The notes under the pieces: model-generated
Database searches by the model: none
Seen by the model: only the letters and a program-made list of their open reading frames with translations
What the model was told of the DNA's origin: nothing
Position numbers and translations under genes: made by a program
Shown: positions 947 to 17,288 of the stretch, piece by piece
Layout of the letters: every line of letters starts with the position of its first letter
Position numbering within the stretch: the stretch's first letter is position 1
From: Nitrospinota bacterium
Lineage (GTDB): Bacteria > Nitrospinota > Nitrospinia > UBA9942 > JAHJSF01
Direction: 5' to 3'
Assembly: GCA_018830405.1 (NCBI GenBank)
Contig: JAHJSF010000164.1
Coordinates: forward strand, 1-17,924
Length of the DNA stretch: 17,924 bases

Positions 947-1023
<77 letters not shown>

Positions 1024-1030
1024 ACTCTTA

Positions 1031-1121
1031 TACGATGCCTTATTCAAACCCTAACAACCCCCCATCCCCCTTTGTTAAGGGGGAATAAGGGGATTGTAAT
1101 CATTTTGAACGCAATTCTGTA
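1031..1121. repeat. MITE-like palindromic element, copy 1 (shortened, 91 bp)
   Basis: The left end TACGATGCCTTATTCAAA and right end TTTTGAACGCAATTCTGTA are diverged forms of the terminal inverted repeats seen at 8727-8848 and 17167-17288. The interior is a C/G-rich palindrome, ACAACCCCCC...GGGGATTGTA, around a core TCCCCCTTTGTTAAGGGGGA (1066-1085). It is about 30 bp shorter than the other two copies and lacks their left arm. It ends 7 bases downstream of the nrdJ stop codon (1131-1129), between nrdJ and tRNA-Pro. It has no coding capacity. Confidence 0.8.
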
Positions 1122-1128
1122 TATTTCT

Positions 1129-3471
1129 TTAACACCTTGAATAACCGCATATCCTACAGACCACACAGCCGTCTACATGCTCTATCTGGCCCCCGCAATC
1201 GGGACATACATTACTTCCGCCGACAATCAGAGTAGATTCGCCTTTTGATACCGAGACTGTTTTTTCGATAGCCTTGGTCTTTCCTTTAGCCTTGGCCGTC
1301 AATTTGGAGCCGTCCCTCTGCAGGAAGGCGGCCACTGCCTTTGATATGGCATCGGAACAGGAGAGGATTCGGGCCCCATTGTCCCAGGTCTGCATGTGGC
1401 AGCTGATACCGGTCATCTGTTTGACGATCTCATCCGGGTCAATACCTGACCTTAGTGACAGGGAGACAAGTCTGGCTATCGCCTCAGATTGGGAGGCGGC
1501 ACAACCTCCGGCCTTTCCCATCTGGGTAAATATTTCAAATGGTTTCCCATCGTCTGATTCGTTGATTGTTACATAAAGATTGCCGCAGCCTGTACTCACC
1601 ACACGGGTTGTTCCCCGAGTCACCTTTGGTCTGGGGCGGGGAACAATATGTGAGGTGGTTACCACTTCCTCTTTGGTATAGGTGGTTCCGGTACTCAATA
1701 CTTGGTTCTGGCGGCTTCCGTCTCTATATATGGTTACCCCTTTACAGCCGAGTTCGGCCGCTAATATGAAGGTTTCCCTTATATCATCCTCGGTGGCCGA
1801 GTTGGGGAAGTTGATGGTTTTCGATACCGCATTATCGGTATATTTCTGGAAGGCGCTCTGCATCATCATATGATACTTTGGTGATACGTTGTGCGAGGTT
1901 ACAAATACCTTCCGAACTCCCTCCGGGATAGATTTCATATCGTCAAGGTTTCCGGTCATGGCGATATCTTCCATGAGCTGTTTGGAGTAGAAGCCTCCTT
2001 TTTTGGCGGTCTCTTCAAATATGTTATGCACCTCGACAAGTTTGTCGTTATCCATTACATTACGCATGTAGGAGAGGGCGAAGAGAGGTTCTACCCCGCT
2101 GCTTGTATCGGCTATGATACTGATTGTTCCGGTGGGGGCTATTGTTGTAGTGGTGGCGTTTCTAAGCTTCATCCCTTTGTAGGGAGACTTGCTCTTAGCG
2201 TTATCCTTATCATATGTGCTTCCCTTATAGTTGGGGAATACCCCTCTCACTTCGGCCAAGGCCACCGAGGCCTTCTTTGATTCTTTGTCAATAAACTCCA
2301 TTATCTTTTCGCCGGTCTTTATCCCTTTGTCGGAGTTGTAGGCTATGCCCAGGCGAATAAGCATATCGGCAAAACCCATTACCCCCAGCCCTATCTTTCT
2401 GTTCCCTTTGGTCTGAGTGCCTATCTCAGGGATAGGGTAGTTGTTCATATCTATGACGTTATCCAGGAAATGAACTGCCCTATGGGAGGTATCCTTTAAT
2501 TTGTCCCAATCTATCTTGTAACTATCCTTCTCTTTGTCTTGGAGGAGCATATTGGCCAGGTTTATCGAGCCGAGATTGCACGATTCGTAGGGGAGGAGAG
2601 GCTGCTCTCCGCAGGGGTTAGTGCTTTCTATCTCTCCGATATGGGGGGTTGGGTTGTCTTTATTTATTCGGTCTATGAATATTATCCCCGGTTCTCCGTT
2701 GGCCCAGGCCGATTTTACAATCAGATCAAAGACATCCCTCGCCTTAATTTTCTTAGCGGCCACACCGGTATGCGGATCTATCAGCTTATATTCCGAGTCG
2801 TTGGTTACCTGCCTCATGAAGTCTTCGGTTAAGGCTATCGATATGTTGAAGTTATTGAAACCCTTCTCACTGCTTTTACAGGTGATAAATTCAAAGATAT
2901 CGGGATGGTCAACACGGAGTATCCCCATGTTGGCCCCTCTTCTCGTTCCCCCCTGTTTGATGGCCTCGGTGGCAGAATCAAATACATGCATGAATGAAAT
3001 GGGGCCGCTTGAGACCCCGTTTGTCGAGGCTACGCGGCTGTTGGCCGGACGGAGTTTGGAGAAGGAGAAACCTGTTCCCCCGCCGCTTTTATGTATTATG
3101 GCCGTGTTTTTAACTGTCTCGAATATATCCTCCATTGAATCCCCCACGGGGAGGACAAAACAGGCCGAGAGCTGCTGCAGTTTGCTTCCGGCGTTCATTA
3201 GGGTAGGGGAGTTGGGCATAAAATCGAGATTATGCATCATGTTATAAAAGTCATTCTCAGTCTTTTTGAGATTGGCCGATTCTTTATAATTTAGGTCGGC
3301 CTGGGCAATATTTTTGGCCACCCTCCTGAAGAGGTCTTCCGGGGTCTCCATCAGCTTTCCCTTGGCATCCTTTTTAAGATACCTTCTCTCCAGTACTGTC
3401 AGGGAATTTTTACTAATAGGCGATTTCTTCCTATCTTTTTTAGAATCAGTATCTTTCATCTTTTTTACCAT
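1129..3471 (-). CDS. nrdJ: Adenosylcobalamin-dependent ribonucleotide reductase, class II
   Basis: The enzyme reduces ribonucleotides to deoxyribonucleotides using a thiyl radical generated from adenosylcobalamin; it needs no oxygen and no partner subunit. The 780 residues lack an N-terminal ATP cone. The motif NSPTLMNAG (87-95) precedes Cys104. NPCGE (285-289) holds the radical Cys287 with Asn285 and Glu289. Cys298 in ESCNLGS pairs with Cys104 as the redox couple, with the same 11-residue spacing as between the corresponding cysteines of Thermotoga maritima NrdJ. ATTTTIAPTGTIS is the phosphate-binding loop region. A TSCPD domain (TGISCHMQTWDNGARILSC) and a zinc-ribbon-like cysteine tail (C756, C759, C769, C772, C775, C780) close the protein. 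GAGG lies 7 bases before the chosen ATG. The stop is TAA. Its cofactor links it to the cob operon at the right end; no riboswitch is visible in its own upstream gap. Confidence 0.96.
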   Translation of the reverse strand: MVKKMKDTDSKKDRKKSPISKNSLTVLERRYLKKDAKGKLMETPEDLFRRVAKNIAQADLNYKESANLKKTENDFYNMMHNLDFMPNSPTLMNAGSKLQQLSACFVLPVGDSMEDIFETVKNTAIIHKSGGGTGFSFSKLRPANSRVASTNGVSSGPISFMHVFDSATEAIKQGGTRRGANMGILRVDHPDIFEFITCKSSEKGFNNFNISIALTEDFMRQVTNDSEYKLIDPHTGVAAKKIKARDVFDLIVKSAWANGEPGIIFIDRINKDNPTPHIGEIESTNPCGEQPLLPYESCNLGSINLANMLLQDKEKDSYKIDWDKLKDTSHRAVHFLDNVIDMNNYPIPEIGTQTKGNRKIGLGVMGFADMLIRLGIAYNSDKGIKTGEKIMEFIDKESKKASVALAEVRGVFPNYKGSTYDKDNAKSKSPYKGMKLRNATTTTIAPTGTISIIADTSSGVEPLFALSYMRNVMDNDKLVEVHNIFEETAKKGGFYSKQLMEDIAMTGNLDDMKSIPEGVRKVFVTSHNVSPKYHMMMQSAFQKYTDNAVSKTINFPNSATEDDIRETFILAAELGCKGVTIYRDGSRQNQVLSTGTTYTKEEVVTTSHIVPRPRPKVTRGTTRVVSTGCGNLYVTINESDDGKPFEIFTQMGKAGGCAASQSEAIARLVSLSLRSGIDPDEIVKQMTGISCHMQTWDNGARILSCSDAISKAVAAFLQRDGSKLTAKAKGKTKAIEKTVSVSKGESTLIVGGSNVCPDCGGQIEHVDGCVVCRICGYSRC

Positions 3472-3504
3472 TGCTTGGCCTCAGATGCAGCCTAATGTTA
3501 ATGT

Positions 3505-3533
3505 TTATTACCACTACCAAAACTCTTGCTCAA
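3505..3533 (-). promoter_or_regulatory. Weak candidate sigma70 promoter for nrdJ
   Basis: On the minus strand TTGAGC (3533-3528) and TAATAA (3510-3505) are separated by exactly 17 bases. Each hexamer matches only part of the consensus. It lies in the 107-base gap between smc and nrdJ, where no hairpin terminator for smc is evident, so nrdJ could also be reached by read-through from smc. Confidence 0.3.
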
Positions 3534-3578
3534 AAAAAGTATGTTCAAGATTATCATGTTTTGGGAAAAGAGGCTACA

Positions 3579-6500
3579 CTATCCTAAACTTGTAACCTGT
3601 TCTCTCTTCTTCCCTTTTAGGCTCACCGATACTACCTTAGAAACACCATCCTCCTCCATGGTTACTCCGTAGAGTACGTCGGCGTCCATCATCGTTTTCT
3701 GGTTATGGGTGATGACGATAAACTGCGTATTATGGTTCATCTCGGCCAGCATAGCCTTGAATCTTCCTATGTTTACCTCGTCAAGCGGGGCATCTATTTC
3801 GTCCAGCAGACAAAATGGTCCAGGTTTGAGCATAAATATTGAGAAGAGGAGTGATATGGTGGTCATGGCCCTTTCTCCGGCCGAGAGGAGAGACAGGCTC
3901 TGTAGTTTTTTCCCTGGAGGTTGGACTACTATGTCGATTCCCTCTTCTTCCCCATCTTTCCCTTCCGTAATAACCAAGTCGGCCTTCCCTCCACGGAAGA
4001 GTTTCCTGAAGGTGCCCCCAAAGTTTTCATTGACCGCCTCAAATGTGTCGTTAAACATCTTGGTTGTTGTTGTATCTATCTTCTCTATGGTCTGCTCCAG
4101 ATTGGCAATAGACTGATTAAGGTCGTTCTCTTGATTGAACAGGAAATCGTATCTCTCTTTGACCTTTTCGTATTCACTTATGGCGGTCAGGTTGACCTCC
4201 CCATATTTTTCCAGTTCGCTTCTGAGGAGGGCTATTCTCTTTTCCGACTCTTCTCTGTTTATTCCATCTTCCTGAGGTGCAGGAATGTCGTTCGGCTCAA
4301 TGTTAAACTCCTCGACAATCTTCCTGTTGAGGTGTTCTATCCTTATCTCTGTCTCAGAACATTTGAGGCGTATATTGGCCAAGGCATCCCGAAGTTCTTC
4401 CCCCTCTTTATCGACCCCCTTGATAACCTCTTCGTCGTGGTTTATGGCATCTCTCTTTTGGGCGATGGCCTCCTCAACCACTCTCAAGAGGGCCTTATCG
4501 GAATCCATCTTTAGGGATATAGCACGGATCTCCTCCATATTTTTACCGATAGATTCCTTTAAACCCTCCTTTTTCCCGTTTTGGGCGGTTTCAACCTCAT
4601 TTATCCTTCTGATTCTCTCATGTATGGTTGCTTCTTCTCTCTTTATCTGTTCGATGGAGGAGCGGATATGTTCACTTCTCCCCCGCAGAGAGGTAAGTTC
4701 AATCTCCACCTTTTTGGCCTCTTCTAGGATAGAGTCGAGGGAGGACTGTTTTGAGACAATAGTCTCCTTTTTAGCCCGGTAATCCCTTTCGACTGTTTCC
4801 CTCTTAAGCTCCATATCTGCAATTTCGCCCGATTTTTCCCTATGATCATCCTCCATAGAGGTTGATTCGGTTGATGACTTTTCCATCTCTGCAATTATGG
4901 CCTGAATCTTCTTTTCCAGTCTGTCGAGCTCGTTATTTAAGCGGGTCAGGGTATCAGAGTTATTCCTGTTTATTATCTCCTCTTCCCTTACTTTAAGTTC
5001 TATCCCCTTTATCTCTTCCTTAATCTGCTCAATGCTGACCTTGAGTTTGGCGCTCCTCTCGTCAAGTTCTGTTATGGCTATCCTGTCTTTTTCTATCTCC
5101 CCTTTAAGCTCACCTATGCGGCGCTTCCTGGCTAGGAGACTCTCATTCCCCCCCTTCTCCCTACCGCCTATTATCGTGCCGAAGGTGCCTATGATGTCGC
5201 CATCAAGGGTTACGATGATGCAATCAATATTCTGCTTGGCCTTGAAGGCCAGTCCCCTTTCGAGAGACTCGGCTATCAGGACATTGTGTAGGATATGCCG
5301 GGCTATCTTTTCGTATCCACCGTCTAATCTGACTAGGCTTAGGGCTGTGCCGATGATATCTCCGTCGCTGACCTCTATGGGAGAACTATTCTGAGACAGG
5401 GCCTCTGAGGGGATAAAGACCCCTTTCCCCTCTCTGGTCTCCTTGAGCATCTTGACTGCTTGGCAGGCGGAACGACTATTGTTTACCACTATCCCGCTCA
5501 GGTGGTTGCCAATGGCCGTTTCTATGGCTGTCTCGTACCGGGCATCGGTGGTTATATGATCGACCAAGAGTCCTTCTATTCCCTGTAGATGCCCCGATTC
5601 CTTATGGGCCATGACCGATTTAACGCCGTTACCGAAGCCTTCGAAGCTATCCTTTAGTTCTACCAGAGAGTTAAGAAGCCCTTCTTTCCCGGCCAAGGAC
5701 TCCCTGAGGGAAGATTTTTTATTTTCCACCTCATCAAGTTCCCCTTTAAGGCTCTTCTCTTCCGGGATTAATCTATCGAGGGTCTGCCTCTTCTCTTTTG
5801 TTGAACTATTTATTTCTTCAATCTTTTGCTTGATTGAGGCGATTTTTTCTATCGTTGCCTCTTTTTCAACCAGGGTATCTTTACTCTCCCTCGACAGTTT
5901 ATCCTTACTTGTCTTTGAGGCCTCAAGGCGGGCCTCAATTGAGGCGATTAGATTTTTTTTCTGAGAAATTGAGCTTATCAGCGATATCATCTCCCTTTCT
6001 GATATCTCGACCGACGATTTAAGTTCCCTCAGGCTGGCGTTCTTCTCCTCTATGTGGGCCTTTTTTTCGCGGAAGATCTTTTCCATCTCGCTTAGGTTTC
6101 TATCTGTCTCGGCTATCTCCGCCCCTTTTTCTTTTTGTTTCTCGGACAGGCGGGTTAGTTCTACATTTAGCGAGTTTATTTCTCCGGCATTAGACAGGGA
6201 GGTCTGTTCAATCTCCTCTATCTGTTTCTCCATCATCCTGATGATATTTTCCTTTTCCTCTATACCCCTTTTCCCTTCAAACTCTGACTGACGTAGAGCC
6301 CCAGCCTCTTTTTCAGCCACGAGGAGCTCTGTCTTTAGGATTTCCAGTCTGTTTTTGAGTTCTGCAGAGTTGGCCGAAAGCTCTGTTTCCCTCTCAGCAA
6401 TAAGCCTTTTCTCCCCGGACTCTTTGGCCAGCCCACTTTTTAGAGAGTGAATCTCGGCTGAGGTAAGACTGAGGTTTAGGTTTCGAATCTCCTCTTTATG

Positions 6501-7163
6501 GCTTTTATATCTTTCTGCCTTTTTGGCTTGTCTCCTGAGAGAATTCATCTGGGTACTCAATTCTTTTACTATGTCGTTGACCCGGACGAGGTTTTGTTTG
6601 GAGGAGGTTAATTTTCCGAGGGCCTCTTTGCGGCGCTGCCTGTATTTCATCGTACCGGCGGCCTCTTCGATGAGGAAACGTCTGTCGGCCGGTTTGGAGT
6701 TCATGATACGGTTTACTAAGGCGAGATCGATTACCGATAGGTTTCTGGCGCTTAGACCGGTGTCGAGAAATATGTCGACGATATCTTTTAGGCGGCAGGG
6801 GGTGTTGTTTATCAGGTATTCACTCTCGCCCGATTTGAACAGTCGCCTTGTAATCGAGATTTCTTCAAAAGAGGATAGGGTGGGGGAGGTGATGGCCCCG
6901 TCTATATCGGCTAGGTTTAAGGTGACTTCGGCCATGCCGCCGGCTCGGCGCGTTTGGCTGCCACTGAAGATCAGTTCATCCATCTTGGTTCCACGGAGGA
7001 TTTTACTGCTCTGTTCTCCGAGGACCCACCTTATTCCGTCTGAAATATTACTCTTGCCGCAACCGTTAGGGCCGATTATCCCTGTAATGCCACTATTAAA
7101 GTCGAGCCTTATCTCTTCAGCGAAGGATTTGAATCCCGCCAGTTTTATGTTTTTAAGTCGCAT
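3579..7163 (-). CDS. smc: Chromosome segregation protein SMC
   Basis: This is the bacterial condensin ATPase, which works as a homodimer with ScpA and ScpB to organise and separate the chromosome. The two partners are not in the window. The full 1194 residues match the family length. Walker A GPNGCGKS is at 31-38, with the Q-loop region after it. Long charged coiled coils run at about 170-500 and 680-1020. A glycine-containing hinge lies at about 510-670 (GFGNG, GDIIGTFGTIIGGRE). The ABC signature LSAGERA is at 1093-1099 and Walker B FCLLDEIDAPLD at 1118-1129, followed by the ITHNQKTM switch. The start is fixed by the canonical N-terminus MRLKNIKLAGFKSF, though the Shine-Dalgarno is weak (GAGA about 12 bases upstream). 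A good promoter stands 45-73 bases upstream. The stop is TAG, showing that amber is a normal terminator here. Confidence 0.97.
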   Translation of the reverse strand: MRLKNIKLAGFKSFAEEIRLDFNSGITGIIGPNGCGKSNISDGIRWVLGEQSSKILRGTKMDELIFSGSQTRRAGGMAEVTLNLADIDGAITSPTLSSFEEISITRRLFKSGESEYLINNTPCRLKDIVDIFLDTGLSARNLSVIDLALVNRIMNSKPADRRFLIEEAAGTMKYRQRRKEALGKLTSSKQNLVRVNDIVKELSTQMNSLRRQAKKAERYKSHKEEIRNLNLSLTSAEIHSLKSGLAKESGEKRLIAERETELSANSAELKNRLEILKTELLVAEKEAGALRQSEFEGKRGIEEKENIIRMMEKQIEEIEQTSLSNAGEINSLNVELTRLSEKQKEKGAEIAETDRNLSEMEKIFREKKAHIEEKNASLRELKSSVEISEREMISLISSISQKKNLIASIEARLEASKTSKDKLSRESKDTLVEKEATIEKIASIKQKIEEINSSTKEKRQTLDRLIPEEKSLKGELDEVENKKSSLRESLAGKEGLLNSLVELKDSFEGFGNGVKSVMAHKESGHLQGIEGLLVDHITTDARYETAIETAIGNHLSGIVVNNSRSACQAVKMLKETREGKGVFIPSEALSQNSSPIEVSDGDIIGTALSLVRLDGGYEKIARHILHNVLIAESLERGLAFKAKQNIDCIIVTLDGDIIGTFGTIIGGREKGGNESLLARKRRIGELKGEIEKDRIAITELDERSAKLKVSIEQIKEEIKGIELKVREEEIINRNNSDTLTRLNNELDRLEKKIQAIIAEMEKSSTESTSMEDDHREKSGEIADMELKRETVERDYRAKKETIVSKQSSLDSILEEAKKVEIELTSLRGRSEHIRSSIEQIKREEATIHERIRRINEVETAQNGKKEGLKESIGKNMEEIRAISLKMDSDKALLRVVEEAIAQKRDAINHDEEVIKGVDKEGEELRDALANIRLKCSETEIRIEHLNRKIVEEFNIEPNDIPAPQEDGINREESEKRIALLRSELEKYGEVNLTAISEYEKVKERYDFLFNQENDLNQSIANLEQTIEKIDTTTTKMFNDTFEAVNENFGGTFRKLFRGGKADLVITEGKDGEEEGIDIVVQPPGKKLQSLSLLSAGERAMTTISLLFSIFMLKPGPFCLLDEIDAPLDEVNIGRFKAMLAEMNHNTQFIVITHNQKTMMDADVLYGVTMEEDGVSKVVSVSLKGKKREQVTSLG

Positions 7164-7207
7164 TTATATTTTGTCTCTATTTGGTGAATAAACAGATAAA
7201 GGTATTT

Positions 7208-7236
7208 ATGATAGAGATAATACGGGCATTTGTAAA
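7208..7236 (-). promoter_or_regulatory. Sigma70-type promoter for smc
   Basis: On the minus strand TTTACA (7236-7231) and TATCAT (7213-7208) are separated by 17 bases; each matches five of six consensus positions. Transcription would begin near 7201, giving a leader of about 38 bases before the smc ATG at 7163. The same TATCAT box is used in the cob promoter at 15277-15282. This makes smc separable from the upstream frr operon. Confidence 0.65.
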
Positions 7237-7409
7237 GAGTTCCCTACCAGCCCAAATGTTAGACAAATTGAAACCCCTTCGGTGCGGGGTACTGCCAGGT
7301 TGCAAACAAAGAAGCACCAATATGTTAAGTGACTCTTGAGCTTGATATTTAGAGTGGTCTGGCGAGTATTGGTTGCGGCACGGGGTATATTCACAATGCC
7401 CAACATGGT
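7237..7409. other. Intergenic region with nested inverted repeats between frr and smc
   Basis: This 173-base gap has no convincing gene. It holds an inverted repeat ACCAATA (7316-7322) / TATTGGT (7367-7373), enclosing ACTCT (7332-7336) / AGAGT (7351-7355). It also has an imperfect direct repeat, TTCGGTGCGGGGTA (7278-7291) and TGCGGCACGGGGTA (7374-7387), 11 of 14 identical. On the minus strand ACCCC-GCACCGAA-GGGGT (7290-7273) followed by TTTCAATTT could be a weak terminator for the rpsB-frr operon. A 66-codon minus ORF spanning 7406-7206 has no ribosome site and overlaps the smc promoter, so I treat it as non-coding. Confidence 0.4.
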
Positions 7410-7967
7410 TTATTCTTCCATTATCTCTTTTTCCTTCTTGGCTCCAATATCATCCGCCTTCTTGACATACGTATCGGTTAGACTTTGAATATCATCCTGT
7501 CCCTTTTTAAGGTCATCCTTGGAAATTTCTTTATCTTTCTCCAAGTCTTTCAAGCTGTCCATAGCATCTCGGCGAACATTTCTCAGGGCAACCTTACACT
7601 CCTCAATCTCTTTTTTAACTATCTTGGTAAGCTCTTTTCTTCTCTCTCCGGTTAGCATGGGGATAGATATCCTAACCATCCTCCCATCGTCAACCGGGTT
7701 TAGCCCAATGTCTGAGGCCTGTATAGCCTTAGTTATCTCCTTCATGGCCGATATATCCCACGGCTGGACAGCGATGGTTTGGCTGTCCGGTGTGGTTATA
7801 TTGGCCATCTGTTTGAGAGGAGTGGTGTTGCCGTAATACTCCACCTTGATATTATCGAGAAGAGATGCGGAGGCTCGGCCGGTGCGAATCCTTGTCAGCC
7901 CTTTCTGAAAATGGCTTAGGCAGATATCCATCTTTTCCTTGAGTGCATTATGTGTCTCTTGGGTCAT
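7410..7967 (-). CDS. frr: Ribosome recycling factor
   Basis: RRF acts with EF-G to split the post-termination ribosome and release mRNA and tRNA in the cytoplasm. The 185-residue length is exactly that of the family. The signature LTRIRTGRASASLLDNIKVE and then TTPLKQMANI are at about 19-56. QTIAVQPWD is followed by the DIGLNPVDDGRMVRISIP segment of domain II, and the C-terminal three-helix bundle contains RNVRRDAMDSLKDLEKD. AAAGGA stands 8 bases before the ATG. The gene begins 13 bases after the pyrH stop, as in the widely conserved rpsB-tsf-pyrH-frr order, so it is probably the last gene of that operon. The uppS-cdsA-dxr genes that often follow are absent. Confidence 0.97.
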   Translation of the reverse strand: MTQETHNALKEKMDICLSHFQKGLTRIRTGRASASLLDNIKVEYYGNTTPLKQMANITTPDSQTIAVQPWDISAMKEITKAIQASDIGLNPVDDGRMVRISIPMLTGERRKELTKIVKKEIEECKVALRNVRRDAMDSLKDLEKDKEISKDDLKKGQDDIQSLTDTYVKKADDIGAKKEKEIMEE

Positions 7968-7980
7968 ATCATGGGTCCTT

Positions 7981-8697: not shown

Positions 8698-8726
8698 CTA
8701 TTCTGTCCCTCTTAAGAGTGGGTTTA

Positions 8727-8848
8727 TACGAATTGCATTCAAACGCTAACTTTGTTGGCTTCGTCGTCAAATCCTCGGCATACAACCCCCTTATTCCCCC
8801 TTAACAAAGGGGGATAGGGGGTTGTAGTCATTTGAATGCAACTCCGTA
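8727..8848. repeat. MITE-like palindromic element, copy 2 (122 bp)
   Basis: The ends TACGAATTGCATTCAAA and TTTGAATGCAACTCCGTA form terminal inverted repeats. The left arm (GCTAACTTTGTTGGCTTCG, from about 8743) matches copy 3 closely. The right half instead carries a C/G-rich palindrome, ACAACCCCC...GGGGGTTGTA (8782-8826), around TTCCCCCTTAACAAAGGGGG. That palindrome is the reverse complement of the one in copy 1. The element ends 4 bases from the tsf stop codon (8855-8853), inside the rpsB-tsf-pyrH-frr operon. There is no ORF in it. Its length equals that of copy 3. Confidence 0.88.
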
Positions 8849-8852
8849 GGAT

Positions 8853-9446
8853 TTATTCGCCTATTGCAAACCTGGCAAAACGGTTAATCGATATATTTTC
8901 TCCCAACTTGGCTATATACCTCTTAACCAACTCGTCTATGCTGATATCTTGATCCTTAACATAGGCCTGCTCGGTAAGACATATCTGGTTAAGATACTTG
9001 TCTATCTTGCCGTCCACCATCTTCTGGACGATGTTGTCAGGTTTCCCCGACTCCTTAGCCTGGTGGACATATATTTCTCTCTCTTTATTTATTAGTTCCT
9101 CAGGAACCTCATCCCTCTTGACATAGAGAGGGGATGAGGCTGCTATATGCATGGCCAAGTCATTCAGAAATCCCTGGAAATCATCTGTTTTAGCGACAAA
9201 ATCGGTTTCGCAGTTGACTTCAATCAGCACCCCAACCTTACCCCCCTGGTGGATATAGGAGGCTACGGAACCCTCCGAAGTGGAGCGCCCGGCCTTCTTG
9301 GCAGCCCCGGCTATCCCCTTTTTACGCAGGCAGACTATGGCCTCTTCGATATTTCCGTTTGTCTCCTTAAGGGCCTCTTTGCACTCCATTATGCCGGCCC
9401 CCGATTTTTCTCTTAAGTCCTTTACCATCTCTGCACTAATGCTCAT
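8853..9446 (-). CDS. tsf: Elongation factor Ts
   Basis: EF-Ts exchanges GDP for GTP on EF-Tu in the cytoplasm. At 197 residues it is the short form, as in Thermus, lacking much of the C-terminal region of the 283-residue E. coli protein. The N-terminal UBA-like domain reads MVKDLREKSGAGIMECKEAL (7-26). The TDFVA motif that inserts into EF-Tu is at 81-85, preceded by KVGVLIEVNCE, and DLAMHIAASSP follows. The ATG overlaps the rpsB TAA stop by one base (TAATG), so translation is probably coupled; AAAGGTG within rpsB serves as its ribosome site. The stop TAA is followed 4 bases later by repeat copy 2. Confidence 0.97.
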   Translation of the reverse strand: MSISAEMVKDLREKSGAGIMECKEALKETNGNIEEAIVCLRKKGIAGAAKKAGRSTSEGSVASYIHQGGKVGVLIEVNCETDFVAKTDDFQGFLNDLAMHIAASSPLYVKRDEVPEELINKEREIYVHQAKESGKPDNIVQKMVDGKIDKYLNQICLTEQAYVKDQDISIDELVKRYIAKLGENISINRFARFAIGE

Positions 9447-10474: not shown

Positions 10475-10498
10475 ACTACCTCCGTAATGGTTTATCAT

Positions 10499-10559: not shown

Positions 10560-10565
10560 GTTAAA

Positions 10566-10595
10566 TTAATAAGCATGGATTTTGCCGCCGAACAA
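10566..10595 (-). promoter_or_regulatory. Candidate promoter for the rpsB-tsf-pyrH-frr operon
   Basis: On the minus strand TTGTTC (10595-10590) and TATTAA (10571-10566) are 18 bases apart. The -10 match is partial. Transcription would start near 10560, exactly at the first base of the leader stem, which makes the assignment more attractive than the hexamers alone. A second good -35 (TTGACA, 10613-10608) has no -10 partner at the right distance. Confidence 0.38.
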
Positions 10596-10799
10596 TCTCC
10601 AATTATCCTTGTCAAAAGGGAGAATGTGGGGGAATACAAATCCATACAACTATTCCCCTCAACAGGTTAAACCTGAGAGGGAAAATGCTACAACAACCCA
10701 TACATTCAAACGCATGTCCGCCTTGGTGTCAAGAAAAATCGTCATGCAAGACAATAGTGGATTATTAAGGGGGGATTGTTGTTGTCTGGCTACCCCTAA
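10596..10799. other. Intergenic region with inverted repeat and possible decayed repeat element
   Basis: There is no gene here. It contains a perfect 8-bp inverted repeat GGGGAATA (10629-10636) / TATTCCCC (10651-10658), a near-palindrome CAGGTTAAACCTG (10663-10675), and CATTCAAACGC (10703-10713), which matches the terminal arm of the repeat family exactly for 11 bases. About 50 bases further on, TTAAGGGGGGATTGTTG resembles the inner palindrome of copies 1 and 2. This may be a degraded fourth copy. No U-rich terminator for the SYLF gene is evident on the minus strand. Confidence 0.35.
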
Positions 10800-11369
10800 T
10801 CAACGGGCTATTCTTGAGATCTTTGAACCTTCCAGTGTTAGGTTATACATTAACCCTTTATTCCCGAAGACAAAGGCTATGATGGGGTCCCTCAGGTTTA
10901 GAGAGTCTACGTTTTTTTCTCCGCCCCACTTTACTACAGTCAAATTTCCATCTACTCCTGCCTTCCAGCCGCTACTGTTTATGAATCCATTTAGGGCGTC
11001 TTCATCTAAAAATATTATTACCATTGATCTTGTTTGCGCGCCTAACTGCAGCCCAATAGAGGCGGAGGCTATATTGTAGTATTCAACCGTTTCCCCTCCT
11101 ATTTGCAGAGCCCCTTCTCCATATTCCCCGCCTACCCAAAAACCGGCTTTGATAACGCTTGGAAAAACCAATACCCCCCTGGCTATTGTCAGCAGATCGC
11201 TCCCTGCGGGGACTTCATGGATGAAACGTTTCAGGGTGGCTTCAACGTTGATATCAATTTCATAGGCCTCAGCGGCGGAAGTTGTTTTTGGGAATGAAAA
11301 CCAGACTACGGTAAAAAGCGCTGTCAGAGCCAGAAATGATAGTAATAATCGATACTTGGCGGATTTCAT
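10800..11369 (-). CDS. Secreted SYLF (Ysc84-like) domain protein, copy A
   Basis: The product is 189 residues with an N-terminal signal peptide: basic MKSAKYR, a hydrophobic stretch at about 8-24 and a likely cleavage near TTSA/A at 32-33. It should be periplasmic or exported. The remainder is a SYLF/Ysc84 domain, with RGVLVFPSVIKAGFWVGGEY, GLQLGAQTRSMVIIFL, SGWKAGVDGN and the terminal FGNKGLMYNLTLEGSKI. The eukaryotic members bind phosphoinositides and actin. The role of bacterial exported members is poorly known, often suggested to be lipid-related, so I give no function. AAGGAG lies 6 bases before the ATG. It is about 60% identical by eye to the next gene upstream, evidence of tandem duplication. 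The stop is TGA. Confidence 0.9.
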   Translation of the reverse strand: MKSAKYRLLLSFLALTALFTVVWFSFPKTTSAAEAYEIDINVEATLKRFIHEVPAGSDLLTIARGVLVFPSVIKAGFWVGGEYGEGALQIGGETVEYYNIASASIGLQLGAQTRSMVIIFLDEDALNGFINSSGWKAGVDGNLTVVKWGGEKNVDSLNLRDPIIAFVFGNKGLMYNLTLEGSKISRIAR

Positions 11370-11401
11370 CTTCTACTCCTTCATCATCTGTGGTTGCAAT
11401 A

Positions 11402-11458
11402 TGCTCAATGGTAAAACAGGGTGTCTTGGGGGGAATAAGCATTCAATACCATTGAGCA
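11402..11458. repeat. Perfect 12-bp inverted repeat between the two SYLF genes
   Basis: TGCTCAATGGTA (11402-11413) and TACCATTGAGCA (11447-11458) are exact reverse complements 33 bases apart, starting 33 bases upstream of the copy A start codon (11369). No run of T follows on the minus strand, so it does not look like an intrinsic terminator. It could be an operator or a leader stem. Nearer the copy B stop, ATTTCCCTATG (11480-11490) and CATAAGGGAAT (11513-11523) form a second, imperfect stem on the minus strand. The remainder of the 164-base gap shows nothing more. Confidence 0.6.
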
Positions 11459-11533
11459 CCTCTTGAAAGGATAGCAAACATATTTCCCTATGTGAAGTAA
11501 AAGATATGGCAGCCATAAGGGAATTAGACCTAA

Positions 11534-12103
11534 TCAGCGGATTATTTTTGTAAACTTGGACCCCTCTATTGTCAGGTTATACATTAATCCTTTATTCCCG
11601 AAAACAAAACCTACGATAGGGTCCTGTATGTTTAGCGAATCTACGCTTTGGCCGCTCCCCCATTCAACCACAGCTACCGCTCCGTCTACCCCGGCTTTCC
11701 AACCTTCGGCTTTTCTAAAGTCACGAAGAGATTCTTCAGTTAGAAATAATAAAATTACCGATTTTGATTGCGCCCCAAGCTGGAAACCTACTGAGGCGGC
11801 GGCCGTGCTGTAATAGGCTACAGTTTTGCCGCCGATTCGCAGAGCCCCTTCTCCATACTCCCCACCGATGCCGATACCGGCCTTGATAACGCTTGGAAAA
11901 ATCAAAACCCCTTTTGATTTGGCCATTAGTTCTGAGCCCCCCGGCACCTTTTTTCTAAAAAGTTTCAATGTTGCATCAGCCTTGATATTAATCTCATCGG
12001 CCGAGGCGGCCTGGCTGCTTTGAGGGCAAACGAGGGGAAACAGGGAGAAAAAAATGATAAAAATCGATATCTTTAAGAGTGATTTTTGTCTAATGAAATT
12101 CAT
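11534..12103 (-). CDS. Secreted SYLF (Ysc84-like) domain protein, copy B
   Basis: This is the tandem paralogue of the gene at 10800-11369, with exactly the same 189-residue length. The signal peptide is MNFIRQK followed by a hydrophobic run of Ile/Phe/Leu, with cleavage probably near QAASA (31-35). Cys26 is preceded by Val rather than Gly, Ala or Ser, so a lipoprotein signal is unlikely. SYLF landmarks are KGVLIFPSVIKAGIGIGGEY, GFQLGAQSKSVILLFL, EGWKAGVDGAVAVVEW and FGNKGLMYNLTIEGSKF. The signal peptides of the two copies have diverged while the domains stay close, arguing for retained function. AGGAGG stands 5 bases before the ATG. This copy is transcribed first; copy A could be read from the same transcript or from its own promoter. 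Confidence 0.9.
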   Translation of the reverse strand: MNFIRQKSLLKISIFIIFFSLFPLVCPQSSQAASADEINIKADATLKLFRKKVPGGSELMAKSKGVLIFPSVIKAGIGIGGEYGEGALRIGGKTVAYYSTAAASVGFQLGAQSKSVILLFLTEESLRDFRKAEGWKAGVDGAVAVVEWGSGQSVDSLNIQDPIVGFVFGNKGLMYNLTIEGSKFTKIIR

Positions 12104-12216
12104 TACAGCCTCCTGATATAATTATGAAACGTGTTTATTCTGCAACCCTTGGCAGCTTGCCGGTGTTTTTCGTACGTTCATATTCTATAGCAATTTCTCC
12201 CCATTATGTAATTTAC

Positions 12217-12245
12217 TTGCCCTTGTAGAATGGTCAAAATAACTT
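12217..12245 (+). promoter_or_regulatory. Weak candidate promoter on the plus strand
   Basis: TTGCCC (12217-12222) and TAACTT (12240-12245) are 17 bases apart on the plus strand, ahead of the hairpin cluster and the 61-codon ORF. The -10 match is poor (3 of 6). It is listed only because a ribosome site, an ORF, hairpins and a T-run follow in order. Confidence 0.2.
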
Positions 12246-12273
12246 ACCCCCCACTTGTTTTAACGGGAGGTAA
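12244..12273. repeat. Hairpin enclosing a Shine-Dalgarno-like sequence
   Basis: TTACCCCCC (12244-12252) pairs with GGGAGGTAA (12265-12273), nine positions with one C/A mismatch, across a 12-base loop. On the plus strand its 3' arm contains GGGAGG, the ribosome site of the candidate small ORF, so folding would mask it. On the minus strand the same stem is followed by GTTATTTTG and might act as a weak end for the histidine kinase transcript. Confidence 0.4.
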
Positions 12274-12278
12274 AAAAT

Positions 12279-12464
12279 GTGAGACTCAGGCCAAAACTGC
12301 TTGATGCCAAGGGGCCGGTAGCGCTTTGGAGAGAAGGTCTGCCGTCCAAAAATGGTTTGGGGGGCAGAATAGGGGGTATAAAAATCACCCCCGGTTGGTT
12401 CGATTTAAAGATAGCGGTAATTCCGAAGGATATATCAACGAATATCTGTAGCAGGTTTTTTTAG
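12279..12464 (+). CDS. Possible small protein, 61 codons, unrecognised
   Basis: GTG at 12279 is preceded by GGGAGG (12265-12270) at 8-base spacing, a strong ribosome site. An ATG one base earlier is followed directly by TGA. The frame gives a basic 61-residue peptide (MRLRPKLLDAKGP... ending TNICSRFF) with glycines in the middle (GLGGRIGGIKI) and no signal or membrane segment. I recognise no family. The segment also folds into hairpins (12339-12367 and 12372-12392) and ends in seven T (12456-12462), so a structured non-coding RNA is an equal alternative, and chance remains possible. The gap 12104-12278 otherwise holds only the copy B ribosome site. Confidence 0.25.
   Translation: MRLRPKLLDAKGPVALWREGLPSKNGLGGRIGGIKITPGWFDLKIAVIPKDISTNICSRFF
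12339..12392. repeat. Two adjacent hairpins
   Basis: CTGCC-GT-CCAAA (12339-12350) pairs with TTTGG-GG-GGCAG (12356-12367), giving two perfect 5-bp blocks around a small internal loop. Four bases later GGGGGT (12372-12377) pairs with ACCCCC (12387-12392). Both lie within the candidate small ORF or RNA. Confidence 0.4.
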
Positions 12465-12467
12465 AAG

Positions 12468-12510
12468 GGTAATCCAATCGGGAGATGTCTCCTGCCGATT
12501 AGATTATCCC
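12468..12510. repeat. Long hairpin overlapping the histidine kinase stop codon
   Basis: GGGTAATC-C-AATCGG-GAGA pairs with TCTC-CTG-CCGATT-A-GATTA-T-CCC across a 2-base loop (86-87 of the 12400 block), about 18 base pairs with a few bulges. It includes the last codons and the stop (12506-12504) of the kinase on the minus strand. No T-run follows on either side, so it is not a textbook intrinsic terminator, but it could protect the 3' end of the mRNA. Confidence 0.55.
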
Positions 12511-15134
12511 TTGTCCAAAACATTTCTTATGGTGGCGGCCAAGGTACTTCGGCTGACCGGTTTCATGATCAGGGCCCTAATGTTCAGATCTTTTGTCTCA
12601 TCTTCCGAAATTTTGGAATTGTACCCTGTATTAATTATTATGGGGAGTTTCGGTCTTATATTTAAGACCAGTTTGGCCAGTTCAACCCCTGTCATGGCTG
12701 GCATTGTCTGGTCGGTAATCAAAAGGTCGTACCCTTCAGGATTGTCCTTGAATAACTCCAACGCCTTGGAACTGCTCGTTGTGCCGGTTACCTTATACCC
12801 CAACTTTTGGAGAGATGTTTTGTAGAGGCCGACTATTATCTCCTCATCATCTACAATGAGTATCCGTTCGCCCCCTCCTCTAATCTCCTCTTTATTCTCA
12901 ATCTTTAGGGACTCTTCGGCGTCTATTACCGGTAGGAAAATATGGAAGGCCGACCCCTTTCCGACCTTTGTATCTACGCGAATGAGGCCATTATACTCAT
13001 CCACTATCCCCTTAACCATTGATAGCCCAAGCCCGGTGCCCTTTCCCAATTTTTTAGTGGTGAAGTAGGGCTCAAATATATGGTCTAATATCGAGCTGTT
13101 TATCCCCCGCCCATTATCACTCACGGTGAGCTCAACGAATGGGCCCGGGGGTATTTTAGGATTCCCTATCTCCTCCTTGGATAGTTCGGTCCGGTTCAGC
13201 TTTACCCTTATTATCCCAACCTCTCCCTCCATCGCCTGGGCGGAGTTGGCGCATAGATTTACAAGTATCTGCTATATCTTGGTGGGGTCGGCCACAATTG
13301 TTCCGCACGAACTTTCAATATCCTTCTGGATATCAATGGTGGTTGGGATAGAGGAACGGAGCAGTTTTAGCGATTCTGTTATGATAAATTTCGGGTCTAT
13401 AGGGCCATACTGCTCCCCTTTTGCCCTACGGCTGAAGGTTAGAATCTGTTTGACCAGTGCCCTGGCCTGTTCGCTCCCCTGTTGAATCTTTTCGAGGTAT
13501 TCTCTTGGTTCCTCCGGTGTCTGAGCCTTGTTGTGGAAATCGGCTAAAAGCTCGGTATAACCCATTATTACCGAGAGCATATTATTAAAATCATGGGCAA
13601 TCCCCCCGGCCAGGGTGCCGATGGCCTCCATCTTTCTCGCTTGGTAGAGGTCTTCTTCCAATTGTATGTTTTGGGTTACATCCTTGGCCGAGTGGACAAA
13701 CGATTCAAGGTCGAAATTTTCATCGAATACGGGGGCAATCGACACCTTAAAGGTTTTCCCCAACTTTTCCTGAGAAATTACTGTTTCTTGGTGGAGGAGG
13801 TCTTCCCTGTCTTTTACGAGGGGACATTCGGGGCAAATTTTTAGGTCGGCATTAAACAACTCATAACAGAATCGGCCTATAAGGTCCTCCTCTTTGGCCC
13901 CAAACATGGCACAGGCGGCGCTATTGGCCCTCAGAATACGCATATCCTTATCTTGTATGGTAATAATGTCCCTAATGGCGTTGAACGACTTTTCCCATTC
14001 CCTTTTAGACTTATTTAACCTCTTCTCGGCCTCCGCCTTTTCCGTTACATCTTGGAATACAAGGACTGCCCCTATACACTCCCCTCGGCTGTCGATTATT
14101 GGAGCCCCGCTATCGGCTATCGGATATTCCTTCCCGCTTCTGGAGATCAGGGCGGTATGGTTGGCCAGACCGACAATATACTTCTTCTTTAAGACCTCCT
14201 GTATCGGGTTTGTAACCGGTCGGCGGGTCTTCTCATTTACTATATGGAAGACTTCTCCGATATTCTTTCCAAGGGCCTCTTCCGCCGTCCAACCGGTAAG
14301 GCTTGAGGCCACGGGGTTAAGGTAGGTAACCCTGCCCGTTGTATCGGTGGAGATAAGGGCGTCCCCCATGGAGCGCATTGTTGTGCGCAGCCACTGCTCC
14401 TTTGTCTGGGCGTCCCTTTTGGCCTCTTCAATCTTCTCGTAGTGGTGGGCTCTGGTCTTCTCAAAGAGGTAAAAGAGGGTTATCAGGACGGCAAATAGGA
14501 GAAGATAGGTAAAAAATATTATATTCACCGTGGAGTCAAAACCTGAGACCTTATCGCTGATGAGCTGGTGTATCCTTACATCTATTGCCTCTATGGAGGC
14601 GATAAGTTCTTGAGAGATGTTATCGTACCGAGCCCGCAAATTAGGGGGGAACTCTTTCTTATCGGTTAGGCTATCCTCCAACTTTTCAGTAATTTCTTTC
14701 AGCTTGGCTACCTGTATCCGAAGGGGGGCGATATCTTTCCGAAGTATCGGGTCATCTGTCTTTTCGATAGTAAGTTTTTTTACGCGACCCCCATCAAGGA
14801 GGGCCTTTAAATACGACTCACTATTTTCCAGACCCTTATATATCTTCTCTATCTTAAGTAGTCTGTTTTCTAAATCATAATCATCCTGCCTGCCGGTAGC
14901 AGGCTGAACAGATTGGGTGAACATCAGATGGGCATTTGATATCTCATACTTTATCTCTGTCAGGCCACCGATCAGGGGGGCATCTCTGCTTATAAGGCGT
15001 TTACCGAGACTGAATTGATAGTAGACACAGTAGAGCATTATGACCATTATTATGGCCAAAAGGGGGTAGATTCTGCGGTAGCGGTAGGTCTCTTTTGCTT
15101 CGTCTCTGGTTTTAAGGAAATCGCTTAGCGGCAT
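12504..15134 (-). pseudogene. Hybrid PAS histidine kinase with C-terminal receiver, interrupted by an in-frame TAG
   Basis: This is a membrane sensor kinase of 876 codon positions whose frame is intact except for one amber codon at 13274-13272 (position 621). In order: TM1 at 22-40; an extracytoplasmic helical region; TM2 at 203-225; PAS 1 (about 246-366); PAS 2 (about 378-488) with C423, C434 and C437; a HisKA domain with GGIAHDFNN and phosphoacceptor His514. The interrupted N-box reads ADPTKI-stop-QILVNLCANSAQAM. The G1 box DNGRG, FEPYFTTK and GKGTGLGLS follow, and then a receiver with VDDE, acceptor Asp808 (LLITD) and Lys858 (IMKP). The downstream half has an ATG at 13232 but no ribosome site. 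No further decay is visible, so a very recent mutation, sequencing error or stop read-through are all possible. Truncation would remove ATP binding and the receiver. GAGG sits 8 bases before the start. Confidence 0.85.
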
Positions 15135-15191
15135 ATTTAAATCCTCGGTTATCTTTACAAAGGTTCTATGCTTAATGAGAAGCTACGCTTC

Positions 15192-15220
15192 AAAATATCG
15201 GAATTTTCCCCTATTATCAA
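15192..15220 (-). promoter_or_regulatory. Sigma70-type promoter for the histidine kinase
   Basis: On the minus strand TTGATA (15220-15215, five of six) and TATTTT (15197-15192, four of six) are 17 bases apart. Transcription would start near 15185, about 50 bases upstream of the kinase ATG at 15134. It is divergent from the cob promoter, whose -35 is 34 bases away. Confidence 0.55.
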
Positions 15221-15253
15221 CTATCTTTTAAGAATGGTTATTTTTTATATCCT

Positions 15254-15282
15254 TTGACAAGTTGCTCCCCCTTTTATATCAT
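15254..15282 (+). promoter_or_regulatory. Sigma70-type promoter for the cob operon
   Basis: A perfect TTGACA (15254-15259) and TATCAT (15277-15282, five of six) are separated by exactly 17 bases. Initiation about 7 bases downstream places the start at the first pairing base of the cobalamin riboswitch (15290), which strongly supports the assignment. Confidence 0.8.
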
Positions 15283-15289
15283 CACAGAT

Positions 15290-15450
15290 ATTGTAAGTCC
15301 TCTGAGGAGGATAAGAGGGAAGACGGTGTAACCCCGTCGCGGACCCGCCGCTGTAACCGAGGACGAAAACCGCCTATCGCCAATGTCTCTTGAGGGATGT
15401 GAAGGCGCGGTTAGTAGAATGATTCGGGAGCCAGAATACCTGCTTATAAT
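15290..15450 (+). ncRNA. Cobalamin (adenosylcobalamin) riboswitch
   Basis: The aptamer shows the conserved blocks in order: AAGAGGGAA (15314-15322), CGGTGTAACCCCGTCGCGG, CCCGCCGCTGTAACCGAGGA (about 15345-15364) and the B12 box AGCCAGAATACCTGC (15429-15443). Closing stem P1 is visible as ATTGTAAG (15290-15297) pairing with CTTATAAT (15443-15450) with one G-U. It is followed by a long hairpin and an intrinsic terminator ahead of cobU, so control is most likely by premature termination when adenosylcobalamin is bound. It should govern the whole cobU-cobT-cobS transcript. Confidence 0.95.
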
Positions 15451-15452
15451 GG

Positions 15453-15498
15453 AACTCTATATTTTGTGGAACCCCGTGGCTGAGGGTTTTATAGAGTT
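15453..15498 (+). promoter_or_regulatory. Hairpin between riboswitch aptamer and terminator
   Basis: AACTCTATA (15453-15461) pairs perfectly with TATAGAGTT (15490-15498), and inside it AACCC (15470-15474) pairs with GGGTT (15484-15488). It starts 3 bases after P1. It probably belongs to the expression platform, but I cannot show a clean antiterminator alternative by eye; CCCCG at 15472-15476 is complementary to CGGGG of the terminator. Confidence 0.55.
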
Positions 15499-15519
15499 AT
15501 TATTGAGGATTAAATACGG

Positions 15520-15557
15520 AATCCCCGAGCATATTGATTATGCGCGGGGATTTTTTT
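15520..15557 (+). terminator. Intrinsic terminator of the cobalamin riboswitch
   Basis: AATCCCCG (15520-15527) pairs with CGGGGATT (15545-15552). After one mismatch GCATA (15529-15533) pairs with TATGC (15539-15543) around loop TTGAT. A run of seven T ends at 15557. It stands 22 bases before the cobU start codon and is the likely off-switch of the operon. Confidence 0.9.
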
Positions 15558-15579
15558 GTTTAAAAATAGGAGGGCTCCG

Positions 15580-16107
15580 GTGAATAGGTTTACATTTGTC
15601 TTTGGGGGCGTGAGGAGCGGCAAGAGTGGTTACGCCCTTAATATGGCCAAGTCTATCTCCGATGATGTTCTCTACATCGCCACATCTACATTTGAGGATG
15701 AAGAGATGAGGGAGAGGATAAAAAGGCACAGAGATTCAAGGCCTGCTTCTTGGGGGTTGATAGAGGAGGGGCTTGATATTGGCAAGGCGCTACGTGCGGC
15801 GGATGAGAGATATAAGGTTGTCCTTGTTGATTGTTTAGGTGTCTTTATCTCGAACCTTTTATGTAATAACCTGGCCGAGGCCGAGATAGAAGAGAGGGTG
15901 ACGCGGTTGGCCCGATCAATTAGAGAGGTCGAGGCGGATATTATTGTAGTTTCAAATGAGGTTGGCTGCGGACTCGTTCCCGATAATCCGTTGGGGAGGC
16001 AATTCAGGGATTTGGTCGGTTTGGCCAATCAGATGATGTCCAAAGAGGCGGATGAGGTTGTTTTTATGCAGGCTGGGATTCCTGTCACAATAAAAGGGGG
16101 AAGATAG
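15580..16107 (+). CDS. cobU: Adenosylcobinamide kinase / adenosylcobinamide-phosphate guanylyltransferase
   Basis: A bifunctional cytoplasmic enzyme of the lower-ligand assembly branch: it phosphorylates adenosylcobinamide and then transfers GMP to give adenosyl-GDP-cobinamide, the substrate of CobS. I choose the GTG at 15580, which has AGGAGG at 6-base spacing; the longer frame would begin at a TTG inside the terminator T-run. The 175-residue product has the P-loop FGGVRSGKS at 8-16, the guanylylated histidine as His50 in RIKRHRDSRPASW (His46 in Salmonella), VVLVDCLGVFISNLL as Walker B, and NEVGCGLVPDNPLGRQFRD plus LANQM near the end. First gene after the riboswitch; cobT starts 3 bases beyond its TAG stop, so the two are surely one transcript. 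Confidence 0.96.
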   Translation: MNRFTFVFGGVRSGKSGYALNMAKSISDDVLYIATSTFEDEEMRERIKRHRDSRPASWGLIEEGLDIGKALRAADERYKVVLVDCLGVFISNLLCNNLAEAEIEERVTRLARSIREVEADIIVVSNEVGCGLVPDNPLGRQFRDLVGLANQMMSKEADEVVFMQAGIPVTIKGGR

Positions 16108-16110
16108 GGC

Positions 16111-17166
16111 ATGGGGAAGATAGAGGAAACGATAGCCAAGATAAAAGGTGTAGATCCGGCTCTCTTAGACGAGGCCCAGAAGAGGCTTGATAATCTGACC
16201 AAACCGCAGGGGAGTCTCGGAAAGTTAGAGGATACGGCCAAGAAGGTTGTGGGTGCTACTGGAGAGAAGAATCCCTCGACTAAGAGGAAGGTCATATTTA
16301 CGATGGCCGGGGATCATGGTGTTGTGGCCGAGGGGGTGAGCGCCTTTCCGCAAGAGGTGACTCCTCAGATGGTTTATAATTTCCTAAATGGTGGGGCGGG
16401 GGTAAATGTCTTGGCCAGACTGGCCGGGGCAAGGGTTGTTGTGGTTGATATAGGTGTGGCCACCGACCTAAACCCTCATCCTTATCTTATTGTCAAAAAG
16501 GTAAAATACGGGACGGCTAATATTGCCAAAGGACCGGCCATGACAAGAGAAGAAGCGATTAAATCTATCGAGAATGGGATAGATGTTTTTGAGGAAGAAT
16601 TTAAGAATGGGATAGATATTGCGGGAATGGGGGATATGGGTATCGGCAATACTACCCCATCCGCGGCCCTTGCCTCGGTTATAACAGGTAGCAGGGTAGA
16701 GGATATAACAGGGCGGGGAACGGGTATCTCGGATGAGGCACTATTAAATAAGATAGATGTAATTAAAAGGGCTATCGATATAAACAAACCTGATCCTAAT
16801 GATGCTATAGATGTCTTGGCCAAGGTTGGCGGTTTGGAGATAGGGGGGATTGCCGGAGTGATACTGGCTGCTGCTGCCCATAGAGTTCCGGTTGTGGTGG
16901 ACGGGTTTATCTCCGGAGCGGCCATGCTGATTGCCTATAAATTGGAGCCGAGTGTTAAAGACTATATTATTGCCGCCCATTCCTCTGTTGAGCGGGGGCA
17001 TAAGGCGATACTCGACTATGTAGGCGTAGAGCCTCTCCTTGATTTGGGGCTTAGACTTGGTGAGGGAACCGGGGCGGCCCTGGCCTTTGGGATAATCGAG
17101 GCGAGCCTAAAGATACTTGCCGAGATGGCCACCTTTGAGAGCGCGGCCGTTTCGGAAAAGATATGA
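16111..17166 (+). CDS. cobT: Nicotinate-nucleotide--dimethylbenzimidazole phosphoribosyltransferase
   Basis: This enzyme transfers the phosphoribosyl group of nicotinate mononucleotide to 5,6-dimethylbenzimidazole or a related base, making the alpha-riboside phosphate that becomes the lower ligand of cobalamin. The 351-residue length is typical. Landmarks are KPQGSLGKLE (31-40), TMAGDHGVVAEGVSAFPQEV (about 64-83), GMGDMGIGNTTPSAAL, GRGTGISDE, HSSVERGHKAIL and LGEGTGAALA near the end. The catalytic base corresponds to Glu318 (Glu317 in Salmonella). No gene for dimethylbenzimidazole synthesis is in the window, so the base could be imported or made elsewhere. A purine-rich GGGGGAAGATAGGG precedes the ATG. 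The TGA stop is immediately followed by repeat copy 3. Confidence 0.97.
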   Translation: MGKIEETIAKIKGVDPALLDEAQKRLDNLTKPQGSLGKLEDTAKKVVGATGEKNPSTKRKVIFTMAGDHGVVAEGVSAFPQEVTPQMVYNFLNGGAGVNVLARLAGARVVVVDIGVATDLNPHPYLIVKKVKYGTANIAKGPAMTREEAIKSIENGIDVFEEEFKNGIDIAGMGDMGIGNTTPSAALASVITGSRVEDITGRGTGISDEALLNKIDVIKRAIDINKPDPNDAIDVLAKVGGLEIGGIAGVILAAAAHRVPVVVDGFISGAAMLIAYKLEPSVKDYIIAAHSSVERGHKAILDYVGVEPLLDLGLRLGEGTGAALAFGIIEASLKILAEMATFESAAVSEKI

Positions 17167-17288
17167 TACAAAGTCGCATTCAAACGCTAACTGCGTTGGC
17201 TTCGTTGTCAGCTCCTCGACATACCAAACAGTATGCCTGTGTCGCTTCCTCCTTGCCGCCTTGTTATCATTTTGAATGCATTTCTGTA
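17167..17288. repeat. MITE-like palindromic element, copy 3 (122 bp)
   Basis: The terminal inverted repeats are TAC-AAAGTC-GCATTCAAA at the left and TTTGAATGC-ATTTCT-GTA at the right, with TA at both extremes. The interior has GCTAACTGCGTTGGCTTCG like copy 2 but lacks the C/G-rich palindrome; instead CGACATAC and GTATGCCTGTGTCG form a small hairpin around CAAACA (about 17217-17244). The left end abuts the cobT stop without a gap, and the last base is the A of the cobS ATG. It carries no ribosome site on the plus strand. Confidence 0.88.

Follow-up and report, generated by a model that had tools for sequence, protein, structure and literature searches.

A miniature inverted-repeat element with TNA target duplications, found at stop codons and stop/start overlaps of a Nitrospinota genome

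Three copies of a short non-coding repeat lie within the 17,924-nucleotide window analyzed here (the whole of contig JAHJSF010000164.1, assembly GCA_018830405.1, from a Nitrospinota bacterium), at the positions given in a preliminary description and, as that description held, 0–7 bases beyond the stop codons of unrelated genes: 7 bp from nrdJ, 4 bp from tsf and 0 bp from cobT. Its size, ends, target duplication and copy number, together with the absence of genes, identify the repeat as a bacterial miniature inverted-repeat transposable element (MITE). The TA at its extremes is part of the element; the target duplication is a 3-bp TNA that lies outside it. We consider it highly probable that the family is moved in trans, and that its placement at stop codons stems from a TNA duplication that is harmless there, combined with selection elsewhere. 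The copies and their ends, the duplication, an empty site, the spread across unrelated genomes and the co-variation of the ends are direct observations.

Copies, ends and target duplication

The genome from which the window comes (G000) is a 1.42 Mb draft assembly of 185 contigs. A search of this genome with the third window copy matched 49 places (down to 8e-48), and a scan for the end pattern returned 79 end matches against three for a reversed-pattern control; pairing of the ends leaves approximately 53 copies, which bears out the suggestion that three copies in one window implied many genome-wide. The ends are imperfect inverted repeats of 18–26 bp (TACGRAGTYGCATTCAAA...), with consensus TACGAAGTCGCATTCAAACGCTAAC at the L end and, read inward, TACGGAGTTGCATTCAAAATGATAAC at the R end. 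Complete copies measure 85–190 bp and hold no gene, as expected of the miniature inverted-repeat element that had been proposed. The basic form, 122 bp long, comprises both ends, an interior that folds back on itself and an apex stem (CATAC..GTATG). A second repeat – a hairpin of 44–46 bp, ACAACCCCC..GGGGGTTGT – is nested at the apex in most of the copies that measure about 150 bp, as well as in window copies 1 and 2, and also stands alone at many sites (100% matches over 45 bp). Copies 2 and 3 differ in their interiors, so that their shared length of 122 bp, as first described, is partly coincidence. In approximately 350 kb of G000 sequence the nested repeat (ACAACCCCCTATCCCCCTTTGTTAAGGGGGAATAAGGGGGTTGT) occurs as 30 exact 24-mers, sometimes in tandem (stretch L121; L-numbers denote the stretches read around copies).

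In well-preserved copies the same three bases stand before the initial TAC and after the final GTA, always of the form TNA (TAA, TGA, TTA or TCA) and within the wider context YTNAR. Identical TNA triplets flank 13 of 27 paired copies in G000 and 15 of 27 in a second carrier, Deltaproteobacteria nzgw173 (G060); a further G000 copy (L115) reads TGA/TGA once its end is corrected by one base. Copy 3 of the window has a perfect duplication, its junctions reading TGA/TACAAAG...CTGTA/TGA. The A that ends the element, followed by TGAAACAGCTTCTT, translates to MKQLLIALQFLSIIPVRI, a CobS-like start (the name rests on resemblance). Read most simply, the site would formerly have been an ATGA overlap between cobT and cobS, and the insertion would have left both genes formally intact. 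Among relatives of G000 searched for the empty site, cobT was identified, but no genome was sufficiently close and no cobT/cobS overlap occurred.

A filled and an empty site are available from another carrier lineage. In G364 – a genome reached via relatives of HGW-Nitrospira-1 (G062) – a copy separates yicC from remA (both named by resemblance), and a search with YicC among the relatives of G364 identified G358, whose YicC is 91% identical. The empty site of G358, CAATGAAACC, reads ...CAATGAAACCTGT..., the TGA stop of yicC overlapping the ATG of remA. The filled site reads yicC-CAATGA/122 bp/TGAAACC-remA, or, with the ends of the element, ...CAATGA/TACGGAGG...(122 bp)...TTCGTA/TGAAACCTGT. The gain is exactly 122 bp plus one duplicated TGA. 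While yicC keeps its TGA, remA keeps its ATG, since the last base of the element is A: because the element ends in A, duplication of TGA also rebuilds the start. An empty site in a relative, proposed as a check, thus exists for a carrier other than G000; the duplication expected there had been TA, and the pair shows TGA.

Table 1. Features of the window associated with the three copies
Feature	Positions	Strand	Remarks
tRNA-Pro (CGG)	947..1023	-	ARAGORN and Rfam; opposite side of copy 1 from nrdJ
Copy 1, 91 bp, shortened, L end left	1031..1121	+	between tRNA-Pro and nrdJ stop; both ends recognised
Nested 44-bp hairpin repeat in copy 1 (ACAACCCCCC..GGGGATTGT)	1054..1097	.	second repeat family
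nrdJ stop TAA	1129..1131	-	open reading frame 1129-3471, minus; 7 bp beyond copy 1
Copy 2, 122 bp, L end left	8727..8848	+	tsf-pyrH spacer
Nested CCCCC..GGGGG hairpin repeat in copy 2	8781..8826	.	repeat search, query positions 62-107
tsf stop TAA	8853..8855	-	open reading frame 8853-9446, minus; 4 bp beyond copy 2
Copy 3, 122 bp, basic form without nested hairpin, L end left	17167..17288	+	exactly between cobT stop and cobS start
Left duplication copy TGA = cobT stop	17164..17166	+	open reading frame 16111-17166 ends here; 0 bp from copy 3
Right duplication copy TGA	17289..17291	+	with the element's last A (17288) makes the cobS ATG start (MKQLLIALQFLSIIPVRI...)

An Rfam scan of the window matched the tRNA-Pro and a cobalamin riboswitch, which lies upstream of the cob genes (15278-15461; RF00174, 105.9 bits); no Rfam model matched the element. 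At 10800-11369 and 11534-12103 stands a tandem gene pair of 189 amino acids each, paralogue-like by eye. G000 also contains another MITE-like family of 65–155 bp with ends TACAGAGCGKCAGAAAAAAGTAGACCGAGG / TACAGAGCGACATAAATTTGTATACC and flanks that are often CTA or ATA (L119:1910-2032, L123:9428-9550, L128:3616-3771, L136:930-995 and others).

Placement on stop codons

Placement was tabulated after excising the copies and recalling genes with a hexamer-based caller made for this analysis; statistics for G000 cover the approximately 350 kb of stretches read around copies, and the null model comprises all TNA sites that lie outside genes or on stop codons. Of 36 intergenic G000 copies with a TNA flank, 13 stand exactly on a stop codon, compared to 6.0% under the null (P = 8.8e-8), so that the proposed tabulation against random intergenic placement reveals a real excess. 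Among the 18 copies that lie 0–20 bp behind a stop, the same 13 are at distance 0, against an expectation of 39% (P = 0.005), or of 27% if sites are restricted to the YTNAR context (P = 8e-5). The preliminary description had the stop-proximal end varying from copy to copy; this holds for the three window copies, but genome-wide the orientation is not random: in 11 of the 13 copies at distance 0 it is the L end that faces the stop. The single copies of G364 and of Nitrospirae WY4.bin7 (G061) are both exactly on TGA stops.

Stop/start overlaps are rare among the permitted sites (21 of 3911 TNA sites in the G000 stretches), and four copies occupy such overlaps: cobT/cobS (ATGA), L125 (G000, TTGA), L230 (G062, ATGA) and yicC/remA. 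Other copies lie directly before a gene, so that the last A together with TGA forms its ATG (L120:5176 and L118:978 in G000, L225:3219 in G062); the gene starts made by these copies are MRYIPNTDSIVEEML.., the RuvC-like MRVLGIDPGCTVTGYG.. and MKRCALSG.., and the ribosome-binding site is displaced. Genes that read into the R end stop at a fixed TGA 20–22 bases inside it, in G000 (L119, L123, L133, L141) as well as in G060 (L206, L207, L215, L222); these copies inserted immediately ahead of the former stop and thereby replaced the C-terminus.

The explanation we favor begins with a non-coding element whose inverted ends would be recognized in trans by a putative DDE-type transposase. Such an enzyme would cut at TNA, preferably within YTNAR, and leave the 3-bp duplication. 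TAA and TGA being TNA sites, the duplication would restore the stop of the upstream gene, and where a downstream gene begins in the same ATGA, the duplicated TGA and the final A of the element would restore its ATG. Since stop and ATG are both restored, an insertion at a stop codon or within a stop/start overlap is, as far as the sequence goes, harmless to both frames. Insertions elsewhere would presumably be purged by selection. In the transcript an end-to-end hairpin may loop the element out, so that the ribosome-binding site within the upstream gene would stay near the restored start.

Several results weigh against this reading. The excess on exact stops is significant in G000 only: G060 has 3 of 22 copies there compared to 6.8% expected (P = 0.18) and G062 has 2 of 12 compared to 5.6% (P = 0.14), together five of 34, which is no significant excess. 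Stop copies in G000 are no more diverged than other copies (P = 0.61); since they are not older, accumulation by selection is not visible. A matching duplication is absent from two of the three window copies, those 4–7 bp from the tsf and nrdJ stops: copy 1 has TTA on its left and TAT on its right, copy 2 TTA and GGA, and their TNA duplications are lost or altered. In G060, five of the 20 copies flanked left and right by T.A have unequal middle bases (L206, L212, L220, L221, L244), perhaps through recombination between copies or because the ends were inserted at two TNA sites. When the cobT copy is folded in its mRNA context, the minimum-energy structure contains no stem joining its two ends (z = -0.14). 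Finally, no complete autonomous element was found.

The excess in G000 is greater than a simple filter predicts, and some true targeting, or a benefit from the hairpin behind the stop, is therefore likely in this genome, though not proven. A fully active form of targeting, in which the transposition complex prefers stop codons – attracted, for example, by the termination of translation or by pausing at gene ends – is possible but on balance doubtful. It would account for the preference for position 0 over positions 1–20, for the orientation of the L end, for stop copies as young as the others and for the single copies of G061 and G364 on TGA stops; against it stands G060, the genome with the most similar copies (92% identity), where exact placements are as few as given above and the three of seven copies at distance 0 within 0–20 bp equal the null. 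That the element is specialized for stops and ATGA overlaps, with operons spared by its hairpin and with the machinery, and not only selection, favoring stops, strikes us as improbable.

Spread and the search for a transposase

A pattern scan of contigs recovered the same ends and interior in G060, G062 and G061. The 122-bp element is present in G060, G062 and G364; G061 has a closely similar form, 127 bp long. G060 has at least 35 copies in the stretches read, of which 26, of 121–123 bp, are 92% identical to each other; G364 and G211, both relatives of G062, have one copy each. Neither the 59 relatives of G000 (blastn) nor the 144 relatives of G060 (pattern scan) yielded any copy, and blastn found none in plasmids or phages. 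A match to Bacilli in the contig scan looks like chance. Matches to the end pattern in viral contigs were mostly coding coincidences (codons for YEVAFK), and one of them, L400, likewise looked like chance. The IMG/VR phage contig L396 carries two genuine-looking elements of 98–99 bp (7519-7617 and 14589-14686) with nearly the same ends, an unrelated interior and duplications of TTA/TTA and TCA/TCA; the genes around them resemble a phage tail cluster. The patchy spread across unrelated lineages fits horizontal movement, and the similarity of the 122-bp element among them points to a transposase system that would itself move horizontally.

Domain searches did not identify that system. DDE_Tnp_1 (PF01609) genes are absent from G000 and G062, and neither of the two in G060 has the ends of the element; DDE_3 genes are absent from G000 and G062, and those in the other carrier genomes lack these ends, in incomplete assemblies from which one may have been missed. 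The anticipated transposase-bearing element with the same ends was thus not found in full among DDE_3 and DDE_Tnp_1 matches, although a truncated open reading frame (ORF) does stand beside a near-identical end in G060. There, two contig edges (L351:2680-2840 and L357:1-119) show TNA followed by TACTAAGTTGCATTCATAGAGGAAC, a promoter-like TATAAT, a ribosome-binding site (GGAGGG) and the beginning of an ORF, MRIATPISNNQRRSIGKLLSKTKSKADFQRVQCM, which the contig edge cuts off. The first 16 bases are as in the element; the two edges close contig C65 and open contig C27, with the ORF behind TACTAAGTTGCATTCATAGAGG. We regard this truncated element as the best candidate for the autonomous partner. The fragment has no Pfam or NCBIfam match, and comparisons with plasmids and phages, and of its DNA with viral contigs, gave chance matches only. 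A pair of ends 2 kb apart on G060 contig C164 was rejected as an autonomous transposon: it encloses two peptidyl-prolyl isomerase-like genes behind mfd (names by resemblance).

Descent from an IS630/Tc1-mariner transposon, which the TA ends had been taken to indicate, is rather unlikely. The start of the G060 ORF is reminiscent of IS630 transposase N-termini, but the fragment has no family match, the DDE_3 genes lack these ends, and TA belongs to the element, its duplication being TNA; because a TA duplication was not found, the element is not to be filed under IS630/Tc1-mariner. An IS5-type origin we hold to be unlikely: some IS5 subgroups use a TNA duplication, which agrees with the 3-bp duplication and the YTNAR context of the element, but the PF01609 genes are distributed as stated and the end TAC... 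is unlike typical IS5-type ends.

Hairpin structure and comparison with known systems

The two ends of a copy change together. Within G060 copies, 602 of 630 end positions agree, whereas shuffled partners give 558 on average and 580 at most; double deviations to the same base number 27 rather than 4.4. Paired changes are also evident in the apex stem (CATAC/GTATG, CATAG/CTATG, CGTAC/GTACG). Template switching between inverted repeats could produce such co-variation, and so could selection on pairing. In copies folded alone the ends pair, L125 with a perfect 18-bp base stem, and two copies of 150 bp fold at -71 and -79 kcal/mol (z about -10). A further possibility is domestication as a 3'-end element, with a hairpin that would shield the 3' ends of mRNAs or terminate transcription, a role proposed for REP-like repeats. 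It would agree with the strong hairpins of the two 150-bp copies and with pairing kept through paired changes in ends and apex stem. It is improbable, however, given that paired end changes can also stem from template switching, that the basic 122-bp copy, in its mRNA context, is no more stably folded than shuffled sequences, and that several copies lie inside operons (cobT/cobS, tsf/pyrH, yicC/remA), where a terminator would be harmful.

Mobile DNA that inserts into a compact bacterial operon usually does harm; the TNA target and the final A let this element spare both frames, and the yicC/remA pair documents such an entry base by base. The strong excess at stop codons is limited to one genome. 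The family offers a concrete, testable case of the spread of a mobile element through operons, and of the tolerance of long hairpins between Shine-Dalgarno sequence and start. The literature searched, which covers few subscription journals, yielded no account of stop-codon duplication by a bacterial MITE. The element is a new family of the MITE kind, whose manner of entry into operons is unusual and well documented.

For translation of the gene behind the element, the split ribosome-binding sites of T4 genes 25 and 38 provide a model: a hairpin between Shine-Dalgarno sequence and AUG brings both into working distance (PMC3014915). The T4 spacers measure 22–27 nt compared to 122–150 nt for the element. 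REP and BIME sequences are likewise palindromic, intergenic and often behind genes. The element differs from them in that its inverted ends are long and its insertion duplicates 3 bp of the target; REPs mobilized by Y1 transposases are not known to produce a duplication. RUP, Correia and similar repeats are approximately 100–200 bp long, with TA-starting inverted ends, hairpin-forming and mostly intergenic (PMC2229807), and resemble the element in size, TA-starting inverted ends, hairpin and intergenic position. RUP, however, targets TA and shares its ends with IS630-Spn1, whereas the element duplicates TNA outside its own TA. Closest in behavior is the Chunjie MITE of Geobacter uraniireducens (178–235 bp), described in a review that makes no mention of stop-codon duplication: Chunjie has dozens of intergenic copies, together with partial ones, and has entered an operon without disturbing it (PMC10969869).

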